From: Hyphobacterium sp. CCMP332
Lineage (GTDB): Bacteria; Bacteroidota; Bacteroidia; Cytophagales; CCMP332
Reading direction: 5' to 3'
Length of the DNA stretch: 64,000 bases
Assembly (NCBI GenBank): GCA_014323545.1
Contig: CP058647.1
Coordinates: 502,001-566,000 of the forward strand
The notes beneath the pieces are model-generated. The model was not told the DNA's origin, did no database searches, and saw only the letters and a program-made list of their open reading frames with translations. Of the stretch, positions 38,577 through 52,285 are shown piece by piece. The translations under genes were made by a program, and so were the position numbers. Every line of letters starts with the position of its first letter. Position 1 is the first letter of the stretch.

Positions 38577-39434
38577 ATGAAAAAATTACTACTTGTTTTG
38601 GTATCAGTTGTGTTTTTGTCTGAAATGACATTTGCTCAACTATCACAACGTCAGAGCAATCCTTCAAATTACTCTACAGGTACAAGACCTTTAGCCGGTG
38701 ACATGGGTATATTTTTGGCCGTAGATGTTTTTGATGCTCAAAGTATTCTTGATGATATAGCAGGTGATGAAAATCCTTCTGATGAATTGGAAGTTCCAAA
38801 TTTCTCACTTGTCAATTTCAAGTATTATAATTCCAATGACGTTGTCTACAGAATCGGATTGGTTGCTGCAAAAGACAAATCAGTTGAGAAAGGAGACTTA
38901 TTCTTTGCTACGGGAACTGCACCTCAACCGACAGATATTGTTCGGATAGAGTCTAAGAATTCCGAAAGGGATTATGCAATTAAGCCGGGTGTTGAGAAGC
39001 ACTTTAACCCAACCAACCTAATTGACATCTATGTAGGAGTCGAAGCGCTATTGGGAACGCATATTCAGCGATCAATTAACTCTCAGGAAAGGAATGATGG
39101 TAACACAATCTTAAATGATGTGAAAGGTACCTCATTGCTTTACGGAGCAGGCGGATTCGTTGGAATGCAGTTTTTTATCGCAGATTTGCCTTTGGCATTG
39201 GGTCTTGAGTACGGAATAATAGGAAAGGGTTATGCTTTCAAAAGATATAAAGTAGTTCAAGAACAGGACGATGGTACAGGAACTTTCGTAAGCAATGAAT
39301 TTTTTGTGCGTCCTGGTGATATTACTGCATTTAACGGAGGTGCCACCGTGCCGCTTTTTGAATCATTAAGTTCCAGAACTTACAATCTTGATAATCAAGT
39401 GCGTGTAACATTGAGTTACTTCTTTTCTAACTAA
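38577..39434 (+). CDS. Secreted outer-membrane beta-barrel-like protein, unrecognised
   Basis: 285 residues. Signal peptide about 1-20 ('LVSVVFLSEMTFAQ'). The mature part has amphipathic strands ('DMGIFLAVDVFDA', 'FKYYNSNDVVYRIGLVAAKD', 'NLIDIYVGVEALLGTHIQRS', 'LYGAGGFVGMQFFI', 'PLALGLEYGIIGKGYAFK') and ends in 'VRVTLSYFFSN', like a barrel with an aromatic terminal strand. I do not recognise a named family. It leads a three-gene run with two lipoprotein genes (gaps of 20 and 23 bases). Confidence 0.7.
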   Translation: MKKLLLVLVSVVFLSEMTFAQLSQRQSNPSNYSTGTRPLAGDMGIFLAVDVFDAQSILDDIAGDENPSDELEVPNFSLVNFKYYNSNDVVYRIGLVAAKDKSVEKGDLFFATGTAPQPTDIVRIESKNSERDYAIKPGVEKHFNPTNLIDIYVGVEALLGTHIQRSINSQERNDGNTILNDVKGTSLLYGAGGFVGMQFFIADLPLALGLEYGIIGKGYAFKRYKVVQEQDDGTGTFVSNEFFVRPGDITAFNGGATVPLFESLSSRTYNLDNQVRVTLSYFFSN

Positions 39435-39454
39435 TTGAAAAAACAGAATCTGAT

Positions 39455-39913
39455 ATGCATAATTTTTTGAAAAATCAAAAATACAGTATGCTGCTGATCG
39501 CACTTGTGATTGTAATATCATCGTGTGGTAGAGGTGTATTTATTAAAAAAAGTATTCAAGGTTCACCTTTGAATGCTTCTGTGGATCTGAGATTATTCTG
39601 GAATGATTTTGAATACATTGGAGAAATTGATGGTACAATAAGTTATACCCAATATGTTTGGGGAACAAGAAGATACCATGAACCAAGGTTTAATAATCTA
39701 ACCAGAACAACATTTCTTACTTTTAATGGAAGAAGTTTCCTTCCTATTCAAAATGCTCCTTTGAGCAGGGCGCTTTACGACGCTCAGGAAAAGTATCCTG
39801 ACCTGGAATTTATAATTCCTTATCAGGTAAATGAGGAAATTCAAAGAATGTTCCTGGGTAGGAAAATAACAATTAATGTTAAAGCTAAAGCTTATAAGTT
39901 AAAACAGAATTAA
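39455..39913 (+). CDS. Lipoprotein, unrecognised
   Basis: 152 residues. Hydrophobic signal followed by a lipobox with Cys at about residue 24 ('LIALVIVISSC'). The mature domain is beta-rich and aromatic ('VDLRLFWNDFEYIGEIDGT', 'SYTQYVWGTRRYHEPRF', 'TTFLTFNGRSFLPI'). No family recognised. It is the middle gene of the barrel-lipoprotein-lipoprotein run and probably outer-membrane anchored. Confidence 0.65.
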   Translation: MHNFLKNQKYSMLLIALVIVISSCGRGVFIKKSIQGSPLNASVDLRLFWNDFEYIGEIDGTISYTQYVWGTRRYHEPRFNNLTRTTFLTFNGRSFLPIQNAPLSRALYDAQEKYPDLEFIIPYQVNEEIQRMFLGRKITINVKAKAYKLKQN

Positions 39914-39936
39914 CATTGATTAAGCAATTTTTTAAA

Positions 39937-40743
39937 ATGAATGCCAATTTGCTTTTTGCAATTGGCATTCTTCTTATACCCCTATCCTGTAACGACGACA
40001 ATGATTTTTTGATACTTGATGTTGTTCCTCAGGATATTTTTAAAGTTTATCCTATTGATGAACCGGTAATATTCTTTACGCGCTCTCAAAGCTCTACAGA
40101 TAATTTAAGCAGATTTACGATAGCTGTAAGAGAAGAAAATGAAGTTAATCGTAGCATTGTTTTCGATAGCGCAATTTCAGGTAGTTTTTTTGAATACAAT
40201 TTTGGCTTTCCGAGACCTTTGGATCAGTCCAGAGAATATGATTTTGAATTCAAAGTATATACCAGTGATGGAAAATCAACCACGCAATTTCGATCGGCTC
40301 TGATAATTTATGATTCATTAGAAGTTCCTCTCACAGAAACTACAGGTCATAGAATTTATCCGAAACTTACTCAAAATCCAGATGGATTTGATTTGATAAA
40401 CAGAGTTGCAGTATTTACGGATACAGCACTTCTCGATACAAATACAGTAGATATTTATGAATTGGCCGACACAACGGTAAACCTCACCAGAATCTGGAGA
40501 AGTAATACCAATGGCAAATTTGTTCGGTTTAATGGCTTTGATTATCCCAATGCAACCTTGTCCAAATTAATAGAGGCATACGAATCAGGTCAGAAACTTG
40601 ATCAAATGATAAATATCCAGGAAGATGATATAATTATTTTTCATTCAAGTGAAAGAGCCGTTTATGCCGCAATTAAAATTGATGAAATAGAAAGCGGCGA
40701 CTCTGTAACAAATGCTTTTTACGAGTTCAATTTGAAAAAATGA
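39937..40743 (+). CDS. Lipoprotein, unrecognised, Asp-rich after the lipid Cys
   Basis: 268 residues from ATG 39937, which puts the lipobox 'GILLIPLSC' (Cys at about 18) at normal distance; a TTG at 39916 would add seven residues. 'CNDDNDF' directly after the Cys resembles Bacteroidota lipoprotein export signals for surface display (acidic residues just after Cys). The rest is beta-sandwich-like ('EPVIFFTRSQSSTDNLSRF', 'EYDFEFKVYTSDGKSTTQF'). No family recognised. It overlaps the convergent CHASE2 gene by 25 bases. Confidence 0.65.
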   Translation: MNANLLFAIGILLIPLSCNDDNDFLILDVVPQDIFKVYPIDEPVIFFTRSQSSTDNLSRFTIAVREENEVNRSIVFDSAISGSFFEYNFGFPRPLDQSREYDFEFKVYTSDGKSTTQFRSALIIYDSLEVPLTETTGHRIYPKLTQNPDGFDLINRVAVFTDTALLDTNTVDIYELADTTVNLTRIWRSNTNGKFVRFNGFDYPNATLSKLIEAYESGQKLDQMINIQEDDIIIFHSSERAVYAAIKIDEIESGDSVTNAFYEFNLKK

Positions 40744-41909
40744 ACCAGTACATATTTCTCAAACATGGTTTTAAGCCTCTCAAAAATCTCCATATAAAGA
40801 GAAAATAGTAAAATAGTCAAGATAAAATCAAAAATGAGATAGGAAATAAAACTCATTAAAAAGAAATAAAGTAAATACCCTCCAAAACTTAATAAATCAG
40901 CATTAATCTTGTATTTACTCGATAGTTTATCGGTAAGAATATCAAAAATACTATCATTGCTAAAACAGATATAGGACACAAAAAAATAGCCTAATAGCAG
41001 GTATACAATAAATAAGGCATTGATTTGATTGGCTTTATTAATTATTGAGTTATAAATATTTACCAATATAATTGGCCCGGGAAGATCACCGTAAATCGTT
41101 TCAACTAAATCATTATCCTCGTAATCCCCTATAAAAATTAGTTTATCCTTAACTATTTTTTCAATACTTTCATCATCCAATAAGAGTAATTCCGACAAGT
41201 AAACTTTTCTTGTGATTTCTGATTCAAAAAGGTCATAATTCCTGACACCATGATCTACAACAAAAGAATTAAGATTAATTTTAAATGTAGACCAATTAAA
41301 ATGATCATCAGCCCTTAGTTTTTTGCCTTCAGTATATTCATACAATTGTACAGGGAGTGTCTTAATTGTATCGGCAAATACAAGTTTTGTTTTAAGAAAT
41401 ACACCTTCGGAAGTTTCAAACGATGTTGTAGCTGTTGGCACATCTAAAACAGGGTAATATGCTGTATCGTATTGACTATCGTAAAGCGAAACGCATAAAA
41501 TATTATCAAACTTATTTATTTCTTTTTCCAGATCCCTATCATATTCAGTAGGCACATCGAAAAAGATATCGCAAACAATAAATTTAGGACCATCATTGAA
41601 TTTTGCAACTCTCCGGAAAAAATCTAATAGAACAGGTCTTGATGTGACCGCTTCTTTTCCAATAGGAAACCCGTATTCATCATATTTATCGACCAGCATT
41701 TTTTCCCACGAAATGTCAATAAAAAGGTATTTAGACATATCCGGTTTATCATCGATATGAAGTACTAAACGTTTGAAATATGAACTTATCCGCAGTAAAG
41801 TAAGCTCTTCGTCATACAAAAATGGCTGTTTATGCCAGTAGTAACTTACAACAATGAGAAAAATAGCATGTATTGCCGAAACAAGCCACAATAAAATTTT
41901 GCGGCTCAT
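40719..41909 (-). CDS. CHASE2-domain membrane protein without output domain
   Basis: 396 residues. Membrane segment 1 at about 5-25. The extracytoplasmic region to about 290 carries CHASE2 features ('LFIDISWEKMLVDKYDEYG', 'PVLLDFFRRVAKFNDGPKFI', 'VCDIFFDVPTEYDRDLEKEI', and 'IVKDKLIFIGDYEDNDLVE' with 'GPIILVNIYNSII', the CHASE2 end motif). Three membrane segments follow (about 298-316, 338-358, 359-378) and a short tail. CHASE2 proteins normally continue into GGDEF, cyclase or kinase domains; none is present. It is the last gene of the caspase array, 3 bases after the secreted unknown. Confidence 0.75.
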   Translation of the reverse strand: MSRKILLWLVSAIHAIFLIVVSYYWHKQPFLYDEELTLLRISSYFKRLVLHIDDKPDMSKYLFIDISWEKMLVDKYDEYGFPIGKEAVTSRPVLLDFFRRVAKFNDGPKFIVCDIFFDVPTEYDRDLEKEINKFDNILCVSLYDSQYDTAYYPVLDVPTATTSFETSEGVFLKTKLVFADTIKTLPVQLYEYTEGKKLRADDHFNWSTFKINLNSFVVDHGVRNYDLFESEITRKVYLSELLLLDDESIEKIVKDKLIFIGDYEDNDLVETIYGDLPGPIILVNIYNSIINKANQINALFIVYLLLGYFFVSYICFSNDSIFDILTDKLSSKYKINADLLSFGGYLLYFFLMSFISYLIFDFILTILLFSLYMEIFERLKTMFEKYVLVHFFKLNS

Positions 41910-41912
41910 GTA

Positions 41913-42758
41913 TTAGAATTGAAAGCTTTTATCTATCCAATGTGCTACTGCTTCTCTGGATGTTTTGCCGTAAAATGAATTGAGATAATCATTAATTTCA
42001 AGCTTTATTGACTCTTTATCCATTTCTGCATCTTTATAAAAGGATATCAAAATATCACATTCTCCCTTTAACCTTTCTTCAGATAGTACTATTGGTTTGA
42101 ATGAAGAAATCAATCGGGTGTCTTTTTTAATTTCATCTCTATAAAAAAGTTTAGCCTCGGCAATTTGAGAATGGTCAACCGGCTCTCCATTGAAATTAAA
42201 AAGCTGATCCGGTCTAAATATCAGCAGATTATCCTCAAAATATACTTTTTTATTAACCGCTTCTTTTCCCAGAAAATATGAAAATATAAAATAACGTTGA
42301 TCATCCATTGGATAATAGGCAGGATCCAGTGTTAGAATCATTTCTTCCCCTATAAAAACAAAATTTTTATCACCAATCATCGCCTCCAAATCTATGATCT
42401 TATGATCTTCAGAGCCTCTGGTAGTCAATGCAGACATCCTTTTCATTGGAACCAGAACATCCTTAATTGTGGCCATCAACTCAGAGTCTCTTTCAGCACT
42501 GCTTTGACTTTTAAGAATGAAGCGTTCACCTTTTGAGCTAATCAATACGGCCATAGCTTGTGGATCTTTAAAAGTCAGTGATTCATTCAAATCAACTTTT
42601 GCTCCTCTGCTCAATTCTTGTTTTTCACTTCCATAAAGGATTGAACCCTTGGTAGTAACAACAGAATATGACTGAGCCATAATTGAGCTATAACCAATAA
42701 ATAAGGCTAATACCAGTAATATTTTAATTTTTCCTAAATATGAATTCACCACCTTCAT
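41913..42758 (-). CDS. Secreted protein of unknown family in the caspase-CHASE2 array
   Basis: 281 residues. Signal peptide about 1-28 ('ILLVLALFIGYSSIMAQ'). The N-terminal region has a FecR/SH3-like beta pattern ('VVTTKGSILYGSEKQELSRG', 'AKVDLNESLTFKDPQAMAVL' and 'GERFILKSQ'). A second domain starts near 'IIDLEAMIGDKNFVFIGEE' and 'LDPAYYPMDDQRYFIFSYF'. No catalytic motif is seen. Its first 35 bases overlap the 3' end of the caspase gene, which implies coupled expression. The ATG at 42756-42758 fits the signal peptide. I infer an adaptor or sensor between caspase and CHASE2 protein. Confidence 0.6.
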   Translation of the reverse strand: MKVVNSYLGKIKILLVLALFIGYSSIMAQSYSVVTTKGSILYGSEKQELSRGAKVDLNESLTFKDPQAMAVLISSKGERFILKSQSSAERDSELMATIKDVLVPMKRMSALTTRGSEDHKIIDLEAMIGDKNFVFIGEEMILTLDPAYYPMDDQRYFIFSYFLGKEAVNKKVYFEDNLLIFRPDQLFNFNGEPVDHSQIAEAKLFYRDEIKKDTRLISSFKPIVLSEERLKGECDILISFYKDAEMDKESIKLEINDYLNSFYGKTSREAVAHWIDKSFQF

Positions 42759-44547
42759 CTCCTACATTTTTTAATGGACTACCTATCGGAGTTTGATCCG
42801 AATTGTTTGATACTGCTACTTTAACATACTGAATTAATTCAGAAACAGGGACTTGCTCCTTGTCATTAGACTCCAAATACTTTAAAAAGTACGATGTAAA
42901 TGGACTATTCCTTTTGCCGTAATTTCCATCAGATACAAATTCAAGGCGACCGGATGTCAAGGCCCATCTCGATTTATATTTTTCTACATTTTCTACATAT
43001 CCACGAGTACTAGGCGAAAACAAGGAACCGCTGAAACAAGCGTCTGCAACCAGAAATATATGTTTCGAATCCAGCGCTTTTATGTATTTTAAAAGATTTG
43101 AATTTGGTAGATAATCAGTGGTTTTCCCGGATTCGGCATCAACAGGAATCCAATATCCTTCGTCCAGGTCTTTATCATAAAATCCATGACCGGAATAAAA
43201 TATTAATAGGTTGTCTTTTTCACCCACCTTGGTACGTAAATCCTGAAATGCATTGTGAATATTTTCCAATGTTGCCTCTTCTTCTGCGACCATATAAACA
43301 TTTTCATCGCGGAATTGATACTTTTCAGTTAAAATATCTTTAACATCAGAGGCATCATTTAAGGCATTGTTTAATCTTGGCCAGTGTTTATAATCGTTAA
43401 TTGCTATAAGCAACAAATGATTCTTGCCAGTTTCTAAAGGATTGAAATCAATATTTTCACTAAAACTAGAATTTGAAGTTTTTGTCGAACTTTTAGTGTT
43501 ATTTGAACTTGGGTTTGATGAGCTTCTAGCAGCTATCTGTCGATTTCCATTTCTATCGGGAATCTCCAAAACATATTTGCCCGCATTTAGCTGTTGCATT
43601 TCGAATAATCTAATGTTAGATCCTAGTTCCGCGGTTGCAAGATAAATTCCATCCCATGAAAATATTAAATCATTAATTGCAGCCTTATGTTTTTCTGTAT
43701 TAGCAAGCAAATTACCCGATTCGACGTCGTATATATTGACCGTTTTATCATAACTGCCAGATGCCAATAATTTTCCATTACCGCTTATATCGAGACTTGT
43801 GATATGCCCTTTTTGGCCACTTATTTCTATCAATGGTGAATAAACATTGTCGTTCCATACTCTAATGACCTTATCATGTCCGCCGCTTGCATAGACATTA
43901 TTCATTGGACTACGACTTAGATCATTTACCCAGGTTCTATCCATAGTCAGGGATTTCAATTCCTGGCCATTATTCAAATCCCAGGTTTTTAAGGTCAAAT
44001 CTTTACTCGTAGAAAAGAGATAATTCCAATCACTAGAAATACTAATGGCCGTCATGTCCTGACTATGACCATAAATTGTTCTTTGTAATTCTCCCGTACT
44101 TTTATCCCAAATACTGATTGTTTTATCAGCTGATGCGGTGATTACATTCCCTCTGAAATAATCGATTCGCAGATCCCAAACTTCCATTTCATGGGCTTTT
44201 ACATCAAATTCGATTTTACCTTTTTGGATATTCCAGGCAATGAGTCGATTATCTCTTCCGGTTGAATACAGCCAACCGGTTTCAAAATCAAATTCTAGCG
44301 CCTCTACAGGAGCTATATGACCTTTTAATGTTCTCATTTCACGAAATGTCTTAAGATCCCACAATATTATATTGGCATCTGTTCCTCCTGAAGCGAGAAT
44401 TGTATTATCAGAATTAAAAGCCAAAGCCTGGACGATGTGGCCATTCTTGGAGAGAGTTTTTAAGGTTTTTATCTCTTTTTGGGAATATGAGCATATACCT
44501 TGTAATACGAATAAAAAAGTGAATAATATCTTAATTGAGTTACTCAT
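42724..44547 (-). CDS. Secreted WD40-caspase (peptidase C14) protein
   Basis: 607 residues from ATG 44545-44547 (an in-frame start eight codons upstream would precede the signal peptide with acidic residues). Signal peptide about 1-23 ('FLFVLQGICSYSQ'). WD40 propeller about 35-320 with clear blades ('LASGGTDANIILWDLKTF', 'VITASADKTISIWDKSTGE', 'LLASGSYDKTVNIYDVESG'). Ser/Asn/Thr-rich linker 341-362. Caspase-like domain 376-607 with catalytic His454 in 'YSGHGF' and Cys504 in 'VADACFSGSLF'. All visible catalytic elements are intact. The signal peptide sends the peptidase out of the cytoplasm, unlike caspases in defence systems. Confidence 0.88.
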   Translation of the reverse strand: MSNSIKILFTFLFVLQGICSYSQKEIKTLKTLSKNGHIVQALAFNSDNTILASGGTDANIILWDLKTFREMRTLKGHIAPVEALEFDFETGWLYSTGRDNRLIAWNIQKGKIEFDVKAHEMEVWDLRIDYFRGNVITASADKTISIWDKSTGELQRTIYGHSQDMTAISISSDWNYLFSTSKDLTLKTWDLNNGQELKSLTMDRTWVNDLSRSPMNNVYASGGHDKVIRVWNDNVYSPLIEISGQKGHITSLDISGNGKLLASGSYDKTVNIYDVESGNLLANTEKHKAAINDLIFSWDGIYLATAELGSNIRLFEMQQLNAGKYVLEIPDRNGNRQIAARSSSNPSSNNTKSSTKTSNSSFSENIDFNPLETGKNHLLLIAINDYKHWPRLNNALNDASDVKDILTEKYQFRDENVYMVAEEEATLENIHNAFQDLRTKVGEKDNLLIFYSGHGFYDKDLDEGYWIPVDAESGKTTDYLPNSNLLKYIKALDSKHIFLVADACFSGSLFSPSTRGYVENVEKYKSRWALTSGRLEFVSDGNYGKRNSPFTSYFLKYLESNDKEQVPVSELIQYVKVAVSNNSDQTPIGSPLKNVGDEGGEFIFRKN

Positions 44548-44597
44548 TTCAAATTCAATTCCGTCTATCAAATTTACGAAATTCTACAATCAAAGTT

Positions 44598-46508
44598 CTA
44601 CTTTGTTATAACAGTGAATTCAATTCTTCGGTTTCTTTGTCTGTTTTCTTCCGAATTATTATCTTCTACAGGTTTAGATTCTCCATAACCCTTAAAACTT
44701 AAGCGATCAAGAGGCACCTTGTGTCCGACCAAAAAATCTCTTACGGCTTTTGCTCTATCTTCAGATAGTTTTTGATTATCCTCAATGCTTCCAATATTAT
44801 CTGTATGTCCTCCAATTTCAATTCTTACGTTTTCATTTATTTTAAGAAAATCAATTAGCTTTTCCAATTCAGGAATTGAGGATGAACGAAGGCTGGCTTT
44901 TCCAAAGTCAAAAAATATATTGTTCATAATGGTGCTGGCATTGACATTTATGGGCGTTAAAGCAATGTCAATATTTAGTTTACCAGAAGCATCCGAATCT
45001 TTTAAATTAAAATTTAAACTCTCAAACAAATAACCTTCACGACTTACAAAAAGCCCATACTCTGCACCTTCCGTTAAAACAATCAAGTATTCGCCATTAC
45101 TAGGATCAGAACTTACGCTTTGTTCGGTTTCATCTGTTTCCAAATCAATTAAATCAATTTGTGCACGCAATTTTTTCTTAGTCTCCTTATCGTAAACCGT
45201 ACCTTTCAAGGAGTAACTTTTGTTTTTTAATTGCAAGCGGGGTGGCAGGTCTAGTTTATATAAAAAGCTTCTTGCACCTTTTTCATCTTTTTCATTGGTC
45301 GAATAATAAGCCGTTTTGCCATCAGCTGCAACAAAAAATGCCACTTCATCTTTCCATGTATTAATTGGAGCCCCTAAATTTTCAGGTTTAGACCATTTGC
45401 CATCTTCTTTTAATGAATAGAATAAATCAAGTCCACCAAAACCGTCGTACCCATTTGTTGCGTAATAGAGCGCTTTATTGCTAGGATGTAAAACGGGAGA
45501 AAATTCTTCTCCTCGGGTATTAATTGGCGCCCCTACATTTCTAGCGGGGCTCCATCGGCCTAAATGATCTCTGGAAGAAACCCAAATATCCATGCGACCT
45601 TTACCACCGGGCCTGTCCGAAGAAAAATAAAGATGCCTACCATCAGCTGATAATGATGGTTGTGAATCCCAGTATTTTGAATTTACATTGGGGCCCATAT
45701 TATTTGGCTTGGTCCATTTATTTCCATTTCTGAAAGCTATATATAAATCACATCTACCTCTTCCTCCCGGTGAGTTGCATGATGTAAAAACAATCATTCT
45801 TCCATCCCCTGAAACTGTACATGTTCCTTCATTGTAAGCAGGCGTATTAATAACAGGAGAGATACTCTGTGGATTTACCCAATTGCCATCGTAAAAACGA
45901 CTGACGAATATGTCTTCTGTACTGATATCATCTCTGGCAGTAAAAAAAATATATTCCTGATCGGCTGTTAATACAGGAAAATATTGATATTGAAATTTAT
46001 TGAGTATTTCATCCAGTCTTTGAGGTTTTATTTTATCCGAGCGATGCGCCGGATCCATGGCATAATCGCAATTTTTTATTTTTTCCTCTGCAATAGCTTT
46101 TGACCTTTTGTCTCCAGGAATAAGAAATAAATATTTTTGAAAGGCATTTTTAGCATTTTCATAATTCCCATTTTCGAATTCTTCCATTCCAACAAAAAAA
46201 TGTGCTTTTCGAAATTTTCGATCATCGGGTTCTAAGGCAATTACTTTTTCGTACATTTTAAATGCCGTTTCCCTTTCACCATAGGAGTTGTATATAATAC
46301 CTTTAAGGAAATAAGCTTCCACAAACTGATCGTCTTTTTTTATCGCTTCATCCAGCAATTGCTGAGCCAGCTTGTAGTTTCTGCGTGAAGCTTCAGATTG
46401 AGCTTTTAGATAATACCTTTCGGCTTTTGCAGAACTCGTATGAAGAGCATCTTTATCCTGGGCCTTTATACTCAGTGAAAAAAAAAGAAAAACTATTAAA
46501 AATCTCAT
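44598..46508 (-). CDS. PorE-like OmpA protein: TPR, PD40, CRD, OmpA-C
   Basis: 636 residues. Signal peptide about 1-17 (ends SIKAQ). TPRs about 30-140 ('NYKLAQQLLDEAIKKDDQF', 'TAFKMYEKVIALEPDDRKF'). PD40 propeller about 170-420 ('EFSPVLHPSNKALYYATN', 'GGLDLFYSLKEDGKWSKPEN'). CRD-like beta-sandwich about 430-515. OmpA-C 525-636 with peptidoglycan-contact Asp570 ('IEIGGHTDNIG') and Arg585 ('LSEDRAKAV'). This is the domain order of PorE, the T9SS protein of Porphyromonas that anchors the complex to peptidoglycan. No lipobox is seen. It starts one base after queE stops and precedes the caspase gene by 50 bases. Confidence 0.85.
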   Translation of the reverse strand: MRFLIVFLFFSLSIKAQDKDALHTSSAKAERYYLKAQSEASRRNYKLAQQLLDEAIKKDDQFVEAYFLKGIIYNSYGERETAFKMYEKVIALEPDDRKFRKAHFFVGMEEFENGNYENAKNAFQKYLFLIPGDKRSKAIAEEKIKNCDYAMDPAHRSDKIKPQRLDEILNKFQYQYFPVLTADQEYIFFTARDDISTEDIFVSRFYDGNWVNPQSISPVINTPAYNEGTCTVSGDGRMIVFTSCNSPGGRGRCDLYIAFRNGNKWTKPNNMGPNVNSKYWDSQPSLSADGRHLYFSSDRPGGKGRMDIWVSSRDHLGRWSPARNVGAPINTRGEEFSPVLHPSNKALYYATNGYDGFGGLDLFYSLKEDGKWSKPENLGAPINTWKDEVAFFVAADGKTAYYSTNEKDEKGARSFLYKLDLPPRLQLKNKSYSLKGTVYDKETKKKLRAQIDLIDLETDETEQSVSSDPSNGEYLIVLTEGAEYGLFVSREGYLFESLNFNLKDSDASGKLNIDIALTPINVNASTIMNNIFFDFGKASLRSSSIPELEKLIDFLKINENVRIEIGGHTDNIGSIEDNQKLSEDRAKAVRDFLVGHKVPLDRLSFKGYGESKPVEDNNSEENRQRNRRIEFTVITK

Positions 46509-49996: not shown

Positions 49997-52285
49997 TTGA
50001 GATCGCGAAGTTTGAAAAATACTAAGAACTGGAATAAGATATTTTATTTCTTTCCATTACAGCTCCTTATATTGAATTTGAGAAAGAATCAAATTCTCCT
50101 TCTTTTCTGGCTAATAATTTTCGCCGTAACTGTTGAGGGAATAGGAAGTGGTCTTGGTATACCTACGCTTTTTCTGGACCCTGAGTACAATGGCGATACT
50201 GGATTTGTCAGTTTTGCGCTTTTAGGTTTATCACTGGCAGGTTTTACAATGGCCTTTAACATCGCCAATTATATACTTGATAGCTATCGTTTTAACTTTT
50301 TAGGCTTTATCAGAAGGCCATTCACACACTTTTGTATTAACAATTCAATAATCCCGATAGCCTATCTCATCACATTTACTATTTCCGTTATTTTTTTTCA
50401 AAAGGAGCAAAATGTTTACTGGATAGATATACTAATAAAAGTTTTAGGTTTCTATTTCGGTTACTTTTTCACACTTTATCTTATCATTTTATATTTCGGA
50501 ATTACAAACAAGGACTACATTAAAAACTTTGTCAATGAAGTTGATAGAAATCTTAAAAAAACACCATTATCACGCCAAAATATTCTAAAAAGACTGAATG
50601 CGGTCAGAAAAGGAAATGTTGTTAAAATTAATTCCTATATCAGAATACCTTTCAAATTTGTAAACGTTAAACCAACAAAGCGATTTGACAGAGAAGCACT
50701 AGTCCATATTTTTGATCAAAATCATTTAAATGCTGTTCTTTTTGAGATAATCTCATTTATCCTGTTTATGGTCATTGGACTTTTTAAGGATTATCCAATT
50801 TTTCAAATTCCCGCGGCTTCATCTGCACTTTTGTTAGGCACCATTATTATTATGTTTATTGGAGCATTTACCTATTGGCTAAGATCCTGGGCTCTCACTT
50901 TTTTAGTGATACTTTTTCTGATTCTCAACTACACTGTTCAATACGGATTTTTTCAAAAGCAAAACTTTGCATTGGGTCTTAATTATGAGATTCCACCTGT
51001 AGAATACAATTTGGATAACATTAAGAAATATAATACTGACTCCATCTATACACAGGATAGTCTGTATACAATTAAGATACTTGAAAACTGGAAAAATAAA
51101 TTTATAGGCCCTGAAAAACCAAAAATGATTTTTATCGCTACAAGCGGAGGTGGTCAAAGGGCTGCTGTATGGACCTTAAGAACACTTCAATATGCAGATA
51201 GTGTCACTCAAGGTAAATTAATGCAACATACACAATTGATTACTGGTGCCTCTGGTGGAATGATAGGAGCGAGCTATTTCAGAGAGCTTTATTACAGGGC
51301 ACAACATAACGATATTTCAAAGTCTTATTGGTCTAATGGTTTCGTTGACAAAATCTCCTTGGATAACCTGAATCCCATCATATTTAGCATGGTTGTGAGT
51401 GATTTATTTTTAAGAGTTCAGAAAACTGAATTTGAGGGTATGTACTATTATAAAGACAGAGGTTATGCATTGGAAGATAAATTGAATCAAAACACAGATT
51501 ACGTACTGGATAAAAAATTAATGGATTATAAATATCCCGAGCTCAGTGCTGAAATCCCTATGGTCATAATGTCTCCTGCTATGATAAACGATGGACGAAA
51601 ATTATATATTTCTCCACAACCGCTTTCTTATATGAACAGAGCTGCACCTGAGTTTATGGGCACTAAGACTCCATTGATGAAAGGTGTTGAGTTCATGCGG
51701 TTTTTTGAAAATCACGGTGCGGAAAATTTACCTATGCTAACCGCCTTAAGGATGAATGCCACTTTTCCTTATATCACTCCAAATATTGATTTGCCCAGTA
51801 ATCCTGTAACAGAAATAATGGACTCGGGGATTTCTGATAATTTTGGCACTTCCGATGCTGTTCGTTTTCTTTTTGTGTTCCGAAAATGGATTAAAGAAAA
51901 TACATCGGGTATTATATTTATTAGAATCCGCGATACAGAACGAAATAAGCAAGCAGAAGAAAAATCAACGCCAAGTATCGTTTCCAAATTTTTAAATCCA
52001 ATTTCTTCTATTTATACCATTTGGGGATCTATTCAAGAAATAAAGAATGATAATTATATTGAATACGCCGAACAGTGGATCGATAATCCTGTAAGTGTAA
52101 TAGATTTTGAATATGACCCCAGGGTTTATTATTTTCCCAAAGAACCAAAACCCGATATAACCTGGAAAAGAGCAGCTTTAAGTTGGCACCTTACGGACAA
52201 AGAAAAACGAAGTATCAACAATGCCATTTACGCTCCCGTAAATCAAAATGCACTTCTGGAACTCCAAAAACTATTAATTAAATAG
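49997..52285 (+). CDS. Membrane-anchored patatin-like phospholipase
   Basis: 762 residues, start uncertain (TTG 49997; TTG 50012 also possible; no ATG nearby). Six or seven N-terminal membrane segments lie between about 32 and 314. The patatin domain (about 370-700) follows: oxyanion loop 'IATSGGGQRAAVW', nucleophile Ser419 in 'ITGASGGMIG' (GxSGG variant) and dyad Asp609 in 'EIMDSGISDNFGTSD' (DSG where DGG/A is usual). Patatins hydrolyse acyl chains of phospholipids. The membrane domain is far larger than in ordinary patatins. The next gene, a DUF5686-like barrel, begins 10 bases downstream. Confidence 0.82.
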   Translation: MRSRSLKNTKNWNKIFYFFPLQLLILNLRKNQILLLFWLIIFAVTVEGIGSGLGIPTLFLDPEYNGDTGFVSFALLGLSLAGFTMAFNIANYILDSYRFNFLGFIRRPFTHFCINNSIIPIAYLITFTISVIFFQKEQNVYWIDILIKVLGFYFGYFFTLYLIILYFGITNKDYIKNFVNEVDRNLKKTPLSRQNILKRLNAVRKGNVVKINSYIRIPFKFVNVKPTKRFDREALVHIFDQNHLNAVLFEIISFILFMVIGLFKDYPIFQIPAASSALLLGTIIIMFIGAFTYWLRSWALTFLVILFLILNYTVQYGFFQKQNFALGLNYEIPPVEYNLDNIKKYNTDSIYTQDSLYTIKILENWKNKFIGPEKPKMIFIATSGGGQRAAVWTLRTLQYADSVTQGKLMQHTQLITGASGGMIGASYFRELYYRAQHNDISKSYWSNGFVDKISLDNLNPIIFSMVVSDLFLRVQKTEFEGMYYYKDRGYALEDKLNQNTDYVLDKKLMDYKYPELSAEIPMVIMSPAMINDGRKLYISPQPLSYMNRAAPEFMGTKTPLMKGVEFMRFFENHGAENLPMLTALRMNATFPYITPNIDLPSNPVTEIMDSGISDNFGTSDAVRFLFVFRKWIKENTSGIIFIRIRDTERNKQAEEKSTPSIVSKFLNPISSIYTIWGSIQEIKNDNYIEYAEQWIDNPVSVIDFEYDPRVYYFPKEPKPDITWKRAALSWHLTDKEKRSINNAIYAPVNQNALLELQKLLIK

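Follow-up and report, generated by a model that had tools for sequence, protein, structure and literature searches.

We analysed a 64,000-nucleotide stretch of the Hyphobacterium sp. CCMP332 genome (contig CP058647.1, positions 502,001 to 566,000; hereafter the window), in which one minus-strand run encodes a PorE-like protein, an exported WD40-repeat protein with a C14 caspase-like domain, a secreted 281-residue protein and a CHASE2 membrane protein (Table 1). The name P2 is used here for the family of the 281-residue protein, which is defined in the present analysis. A preliminary description, made from the letters of the DNA alone, had presented the four genes as one cassette. The four open reading frames were recovered where it had placed them, with spacings of 50, −35 and 3 bases when the caspase gene is started at ATG 44547, and Pfam found the domains it had named in three of the products (CHASE2; Peptidase_C14 with WD40; TPR, PD40 and OmpA) and nothing in the 281-residue protein, which it had called an unknown.

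Table 1 Genes and features of the window and gene arrangements at related loci (L numbers)
Feature	Position or locus	Strand	Remarks
Exported WD40-repeat and C14 caspase-like protein, 607 aa	42724..44547	-	Pfam; signal-like N-terminus
C14 caspase domain, residues 378-587	42787..43416	-	Pfam
Catalytic His454 codon	43186..43188	-	caspase gene
Catalytic Cys504 codon	43036..43038	-	caspase gene
P2, secreted, new family, 281 aa	41913..42758	-	no match in Pfam or NCBIfam
CHASE2 membrane protein, 396 aa	40719..41909	-	Pfam CHASE2, hydropathy, family alignment
PorE-like flanking gene (TPR/PD40/CRD/OmpA), 636 aa	44598..46508	-	judged a non-member from empty sites in two same-family genomes
WD40-C14/P2/CHASE2	window, L038		
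WD40-C14/P2	L042		contig ends after P2
C14/P2/CHASE2	L043		
C14/P2	L058		
WD40-C14/P2	L269		
CHASE2/C14	L247, L248		
C14, CHASE2-guanylate cyclase and FGE-sulfatase	L249 4949-8623		one same-strand run
Three C14 genes directly upstream of CHASE2, P2	L273 7000-15001		one C14 gene with TPR by Pfam; outside the order
C14...C14/secreted 283-aa protein/CHASE2	L279		

The conserved unit is three genes, those for the caspase, P2 and the CHASE2 protein. The two other genomes of the family each have an ortholog of the PorE-like protein (53-54% identity) whose gene adjoins queE and folD, just as it does in the window, and the far side carries GSCFA, OmpA/PD40, DUF4154-like and DUF2911 genes (gene names in the two relatives were assigned by inspection and synteny). 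The caspase, P2 and CHASE2 genes are absent from this site in the two relatives, where an alpha/beta-hydrolase gene stands instead. Since the PorE-like gene is kept by queE and folD at these empty sites, it is a resident of the site and not a cassette member, and the four-gene cassette was rejected. Its product scored under the curated NCBIfam cut-offs for PorE (302.6 bits against 600) and CHU_0125 (320.7 against 620), and the window genome holds about ten related matches. The variable interval at this otherwise conserved site spans 38.6-44.5 kb and contains three plus-strand genes in addition to the minus-strand trio. The plus-strand genes (38577-40743) encode an exported 285-aa protein, a 152-aa DUF6567-like lipoprotein and a 275-aa protein, the gene for the last overlapping the stop end of the CHASE2 gene by 25 bases.

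The P2 product has an N-terminal hydrophobic, signal-like segment. Taking a match to the profile of the 281-aa family as membership, we found homologues across the order Cytophagales in 57 of 390 genomes (33 of 129 genera); beyond the order, 11 more genomes of the class have one, and named genome contigs scanned for P2 gave no match. Fifty homologues yielded no credible Pfam family, and judged by its sequence P2 is a new protein family. Its assignment as a FecR protein was rejected: FecR was not among the 25 Pfam families listed for the 50 homologues, and the resemblance is by eye and by secondary structure only. An AlphaFold2 model built from 3 sequences (pLDDT 64.7) has, at low confidence, an N-terminal beta domain, a second beta domain and C-terminal helices; Foldseek with this model returned nothing at E ≤ 0.001, the best matches being Ig-like at E 5e-3, and on these two grounds no fold is claimed. 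Proteins of 263-283 aa encoded before CHASE2 in L250, L278 and L279 matched the P2 profile weakly (probability 45%, E 2e-4) and may be distant relatives.

The CHASE2 domain of the window protein scored 32.7 bits (Pfam cut-off 26.3), and hydropathy gave an N-terminal transmembrane segment and C-terminal hydrophobic segments, between which the CHASE2 domain is predicted to be extracytoplasmic. A structure model from 2 sequences reached a pLDDT of 36. CHASE2 sensors usually, though not universally, carry a cytoplasmic output domain such as a kinase, cyclase or GGDEF domain. No other Pfam domain was found in the window protein, and no kinase, cyclase or GGDEF, so that it has no recognised cytoplasmic output, whereas a relative in L249 does bear a guanylate cyclase. 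A second CHASE2 gene of the window's genome (L003 6051-8199; G000:C1:657050-659198), with no caspase beside it, overlaps the gene of a signal-peptide protein of 322 aa whose N-terminus weakly resembles P2 or FecR.

P2 and this CHASE2 subfamily are a conserved gene pair across Cytophagales. Among the fetched neighbourhoods, a CHASE2 gene directly follows 25 of the 64 P2 genes on the same strand, and the order is reversed, or the pair interrupted or spaced, at other loci. The CHASE2 subfamily occurs in 48 of the 390 genomes and P2 in 43 of these (Fisher 3e-39 against the 57 P2 genomes); co-occurrence also held at genus level (27/30) and under family stratification (p = 3e-10). Neighbours of P2 that sequence inspection identified as flavin amine oxidase and GreA-type genes were judged lineage-specific and set aside as bystanders.

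Of all third partners of P2 and CHASE2, the C14 caspase is the most frequent by a wide margin. C14 genes lie in same-strand runs with one or the other in 10 GTDB families, some outside the order, and the next most recurrent neighbour cluster is found in 4 families. A caspase lies immediately upstream of five of the 64 P2 genes, where about 0.06 would be expected (about 7e-9 by a simple model that ignores kinship). The neighbourhood that the preliminary description had seen in one genome therefore recurs in other Bacteroidota, the P2-CHASE2 pair order-wide and a signal-peptide C14 protein with it in the 10 families. A tree of P2 does not establish a single origin for the caspase-linked members: caspase linkage requires 5 changes in it, and the window's P2 sits on a long branch with poor placement. 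A second secreted protein family was seen at caspase-CHASE2 loci of two GTDB families (L043 12301-13155, L051 12225-13139, L247 3385-4215 and L248 9665-10615).

The window caspase matched Peptidase_C14 with 67.5 bits (Pfam cut-off 21.4), carries seven WD40 repeats and begins with a hydrophobic signal-like segment. An alternative start at TTG 44571 would lengthen it by 8 aa. For the 607-aa reading, the residue numbers His454 and Cys504 given at the outset are correct and the catalytic dyad is intact. The dyad motifs were seen in 14 of 15 linked caspases, the exception being L274, and a simple rule detected signal-like N-termini in 14 of the 15; the sole failure, in L066, may be a start-codon artefact. 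A signal is also present in 25 of 34 scanned caspases of the same type (A5, after our caspase alignment) that are unlinked to P2. In that alignment, the catalytic His and Cys and two putative S1-pocket Asp residues (D33 and D137) are invariant in seven linked or near-linked caspases. The nearest solved structures to the caspase domain are metacaspases (E about 1e-9). Asp at the putative S1-pocket positions, as in metacaspases, suggests an Arg/Lys preference, and the window caspase would probably cut after Arg or Lys. With the NCBIfam model for EACC1-associated caspases (NF047832), it reached 68.2 bits, under the curated cut-off of 140. The same genome encodes two more C14 proteins, each about 1200 aa long (G000:C1:499146-499889 and 3172763-3173503); the family search that yielded both missed the window's own caspase.

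From the observed gene order, domains, intact dyad, P2-CHASE2 conservation and recurrent C14 linkage, we infer a three-gene envelope unit, with its compartment, physical complex, protease control, substrate preference and stimulus, and we give this reading a probability of roughly 0.5. The CHASE2 protein would be an inner-membrane protein whose sensor domain faces the periplasm, and P2 would be its dedicated extracytoplasmic partner. Together they would form a complex that holds or activates the orthocaspase-type protease exported to that compartment. Given the lack of a recognised cytoplasmic output domain in the CHASE2 protein, the unit would deliver its output through envelope proteolysis rather than by phosphorylation or a nucleotide second messenger. 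The caspase would be regulated in cis within the cassette; in the many genomes that encode it elsewhere, the P2-CHASE2 pair would perhaps act in trans. A conserved P2-CHASE2 pair together with signal-peptide C14 proteins supports such an extracytoplasmic sensing-proteolysis unit, and a sensor role for CHASE2 accords with the CHASE2-cyclase relative beside a C14 gene in L249. Of the periplasmic sensing-proteolysis module first proposed for this DNA, the three-gene neighbourhood and the signal-bearing caspase have held up, and the PorE-like anchor and the WD40 scaffold have not.

Several observations weigh against this reading, two of them against the form in which it was first framed: the PorE-like anchor is outside the unit, and the WD40 scaffold, on which the peptidase had been supposed to be controlled, is dispensable, since the caspases at partner loci variously have WD40, TPR or no added domain. 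P2 has found no structural counterpart at the Foldseek threshold. A caspase directly upstream is limited to the five P2 genes counted above, and most A5-type caspases are located away from P2 and CHASE2. Among the 48 genomes with the CHASE2 subfamily, 44 have an A5-type caspase and 35 a strong one, against 103 and 57 of the 390 overall; CHAT proteases occur in 47 of the 48 against 254 of the 390, so some of the co-occurrence is due to genome complexity. As CHAT is too common for a clean negative control, a family-stratified test was used. Within CHAT-positive genomes, the link between the CHASE2 subfamily and strong caspases persisted in this test (35 genomes where 27.3 were expected; p = 5e-6, odds ratio 12.8), with residual kinship within families remaining in this figure. 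The association is one-sided: many genomes have a caspase and no P2-CHASE2 pair.

The alternative that survives best, which we consider unlikely, is that P2 and CHASE2 work by themselves as a sensor or scaffold pair of the envelope, a Bacteroidota counterpart of FecR-CHASE2 pairs, and that the caspase is a frequent but incidental neighbour in the same secretome islands. Most P2-CHASE2 pairs have no adjoining caspase, operons of a FecR-domain protein and a CHASE2 kinase have been published (PMC5192318), and the L003 locus joins CHASE2 to a weakly P2-like protein with no caspase. However, C14 alone recurs in 10 families where other neighbours reach 4 at most, and the caspase co-occurrence stays significant after family stratification.

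A role in defence or programmed cell death, with CHASE2 sensing the signal on which the caspase would kill the cell, is improbable for the cassette. In its favour, defence and conflict systems of bacteria often include caspases, CHASE2 can occur in EACC2-caspase proteins (PMC8195603), and on the window PADLOC returned a generic caspase match, with repeat and MotB-like matches and nothing else. Against this, the caspase bears an export signal, no defence island was seen, and the genes scanned by Pfam (window 33.5-57.4 kb) include no gasdermin, STAND/NACHT or CRISPR gene, in agreement with the preliminary description. An accidental neighbourhood, in which an island of unrelated exported genes was inserted and the caspase is cytoplasmic or functionally unrelated, would suit a variable site whose interval is replaced by a hydrolase gene in two relatives and is shared with three plus-strand genes, but is just as improbable given that other families have the three genes in this order (L038 and L043, and L042 to its contig end), that C14 recurs in 10 families and that the five upstream caspases have the chance value stated above, kinship ignored. 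Elsewhere in the window, beside lepA, the plus strand encodes a 762-aa protein with a patatin-like phospholipase domain (49997-52285).

We compared the three-gene unit with known systems. In Trichodesmium erythraeum, a metacaspase and CHASE2 form one protein whose caspase is predicted to be cytoplasmic (PMC3501461); the window instead has separate genes, a caspase predicted to be exported and the additional P2 family. EACC2-caspase proteins have variable C-termini, including CHASE2, and EACC2, TRADD-N, ECF-sigma or TPR partners (PMC8195603). The proposed coupling of CHASE2 stimulus sensing to caspase activation is common to both, whereas EACC2, TRADD-N, ECF-sigma and TPR partners were not identified in the window and its caspase has an export signal. 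In the BiofilmReg operon of Burkholderia and Pseudomonas, a FecR/LysM protein accompanies a CHASE2 histidine kinase (PMC5192318). There too, the gene of a signal-peptide protein adjoins that of a CHASE2 membrane sensor; in contrast, P2 lacks a Pfam FecR match, the CHASE2 protein of the window has no kinase, and a caspase is found in place of a response regulator. With plant, yeast and trypanosome metacaspases and bacterial orthocaspases, the window caspase shares the p20 core, the His/Cys dyad and the S1-pocket Asp, to which it adds an export signal and an N-terminal part (WD40 here; TPR or none in the partners). No counterpart of P2 is mentioned in the available parts of these three papers, and a partial literature search found no published description of the P2-CHASE2-caspase arrangement. 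CHASE2-caspase fusions and FecR-CHASE2 operons are precedents, and the caspase-P2-CHASE2 arrangement is a variation on them.

Discussion of caspase relatives in bacteria has centred on cytoplasmic proteases of cell death or defence. At somewhat less than even odds, we tentatively propose that the unit represents an undescribed Bacteroidota envelope-proteolysis system, in which CHASE2 receptors without an output domain, together with P2, would control exported orthocaspases, and both sensing and output would be extracytoplasmic. If so, CHASE2 domains would gain a testable extracytoplasmic output, a family of unnamed secreted proteins would acquire a role, and a simple three-gene system would be at hand in which to study bacterial caspases outside the cytoplasm.

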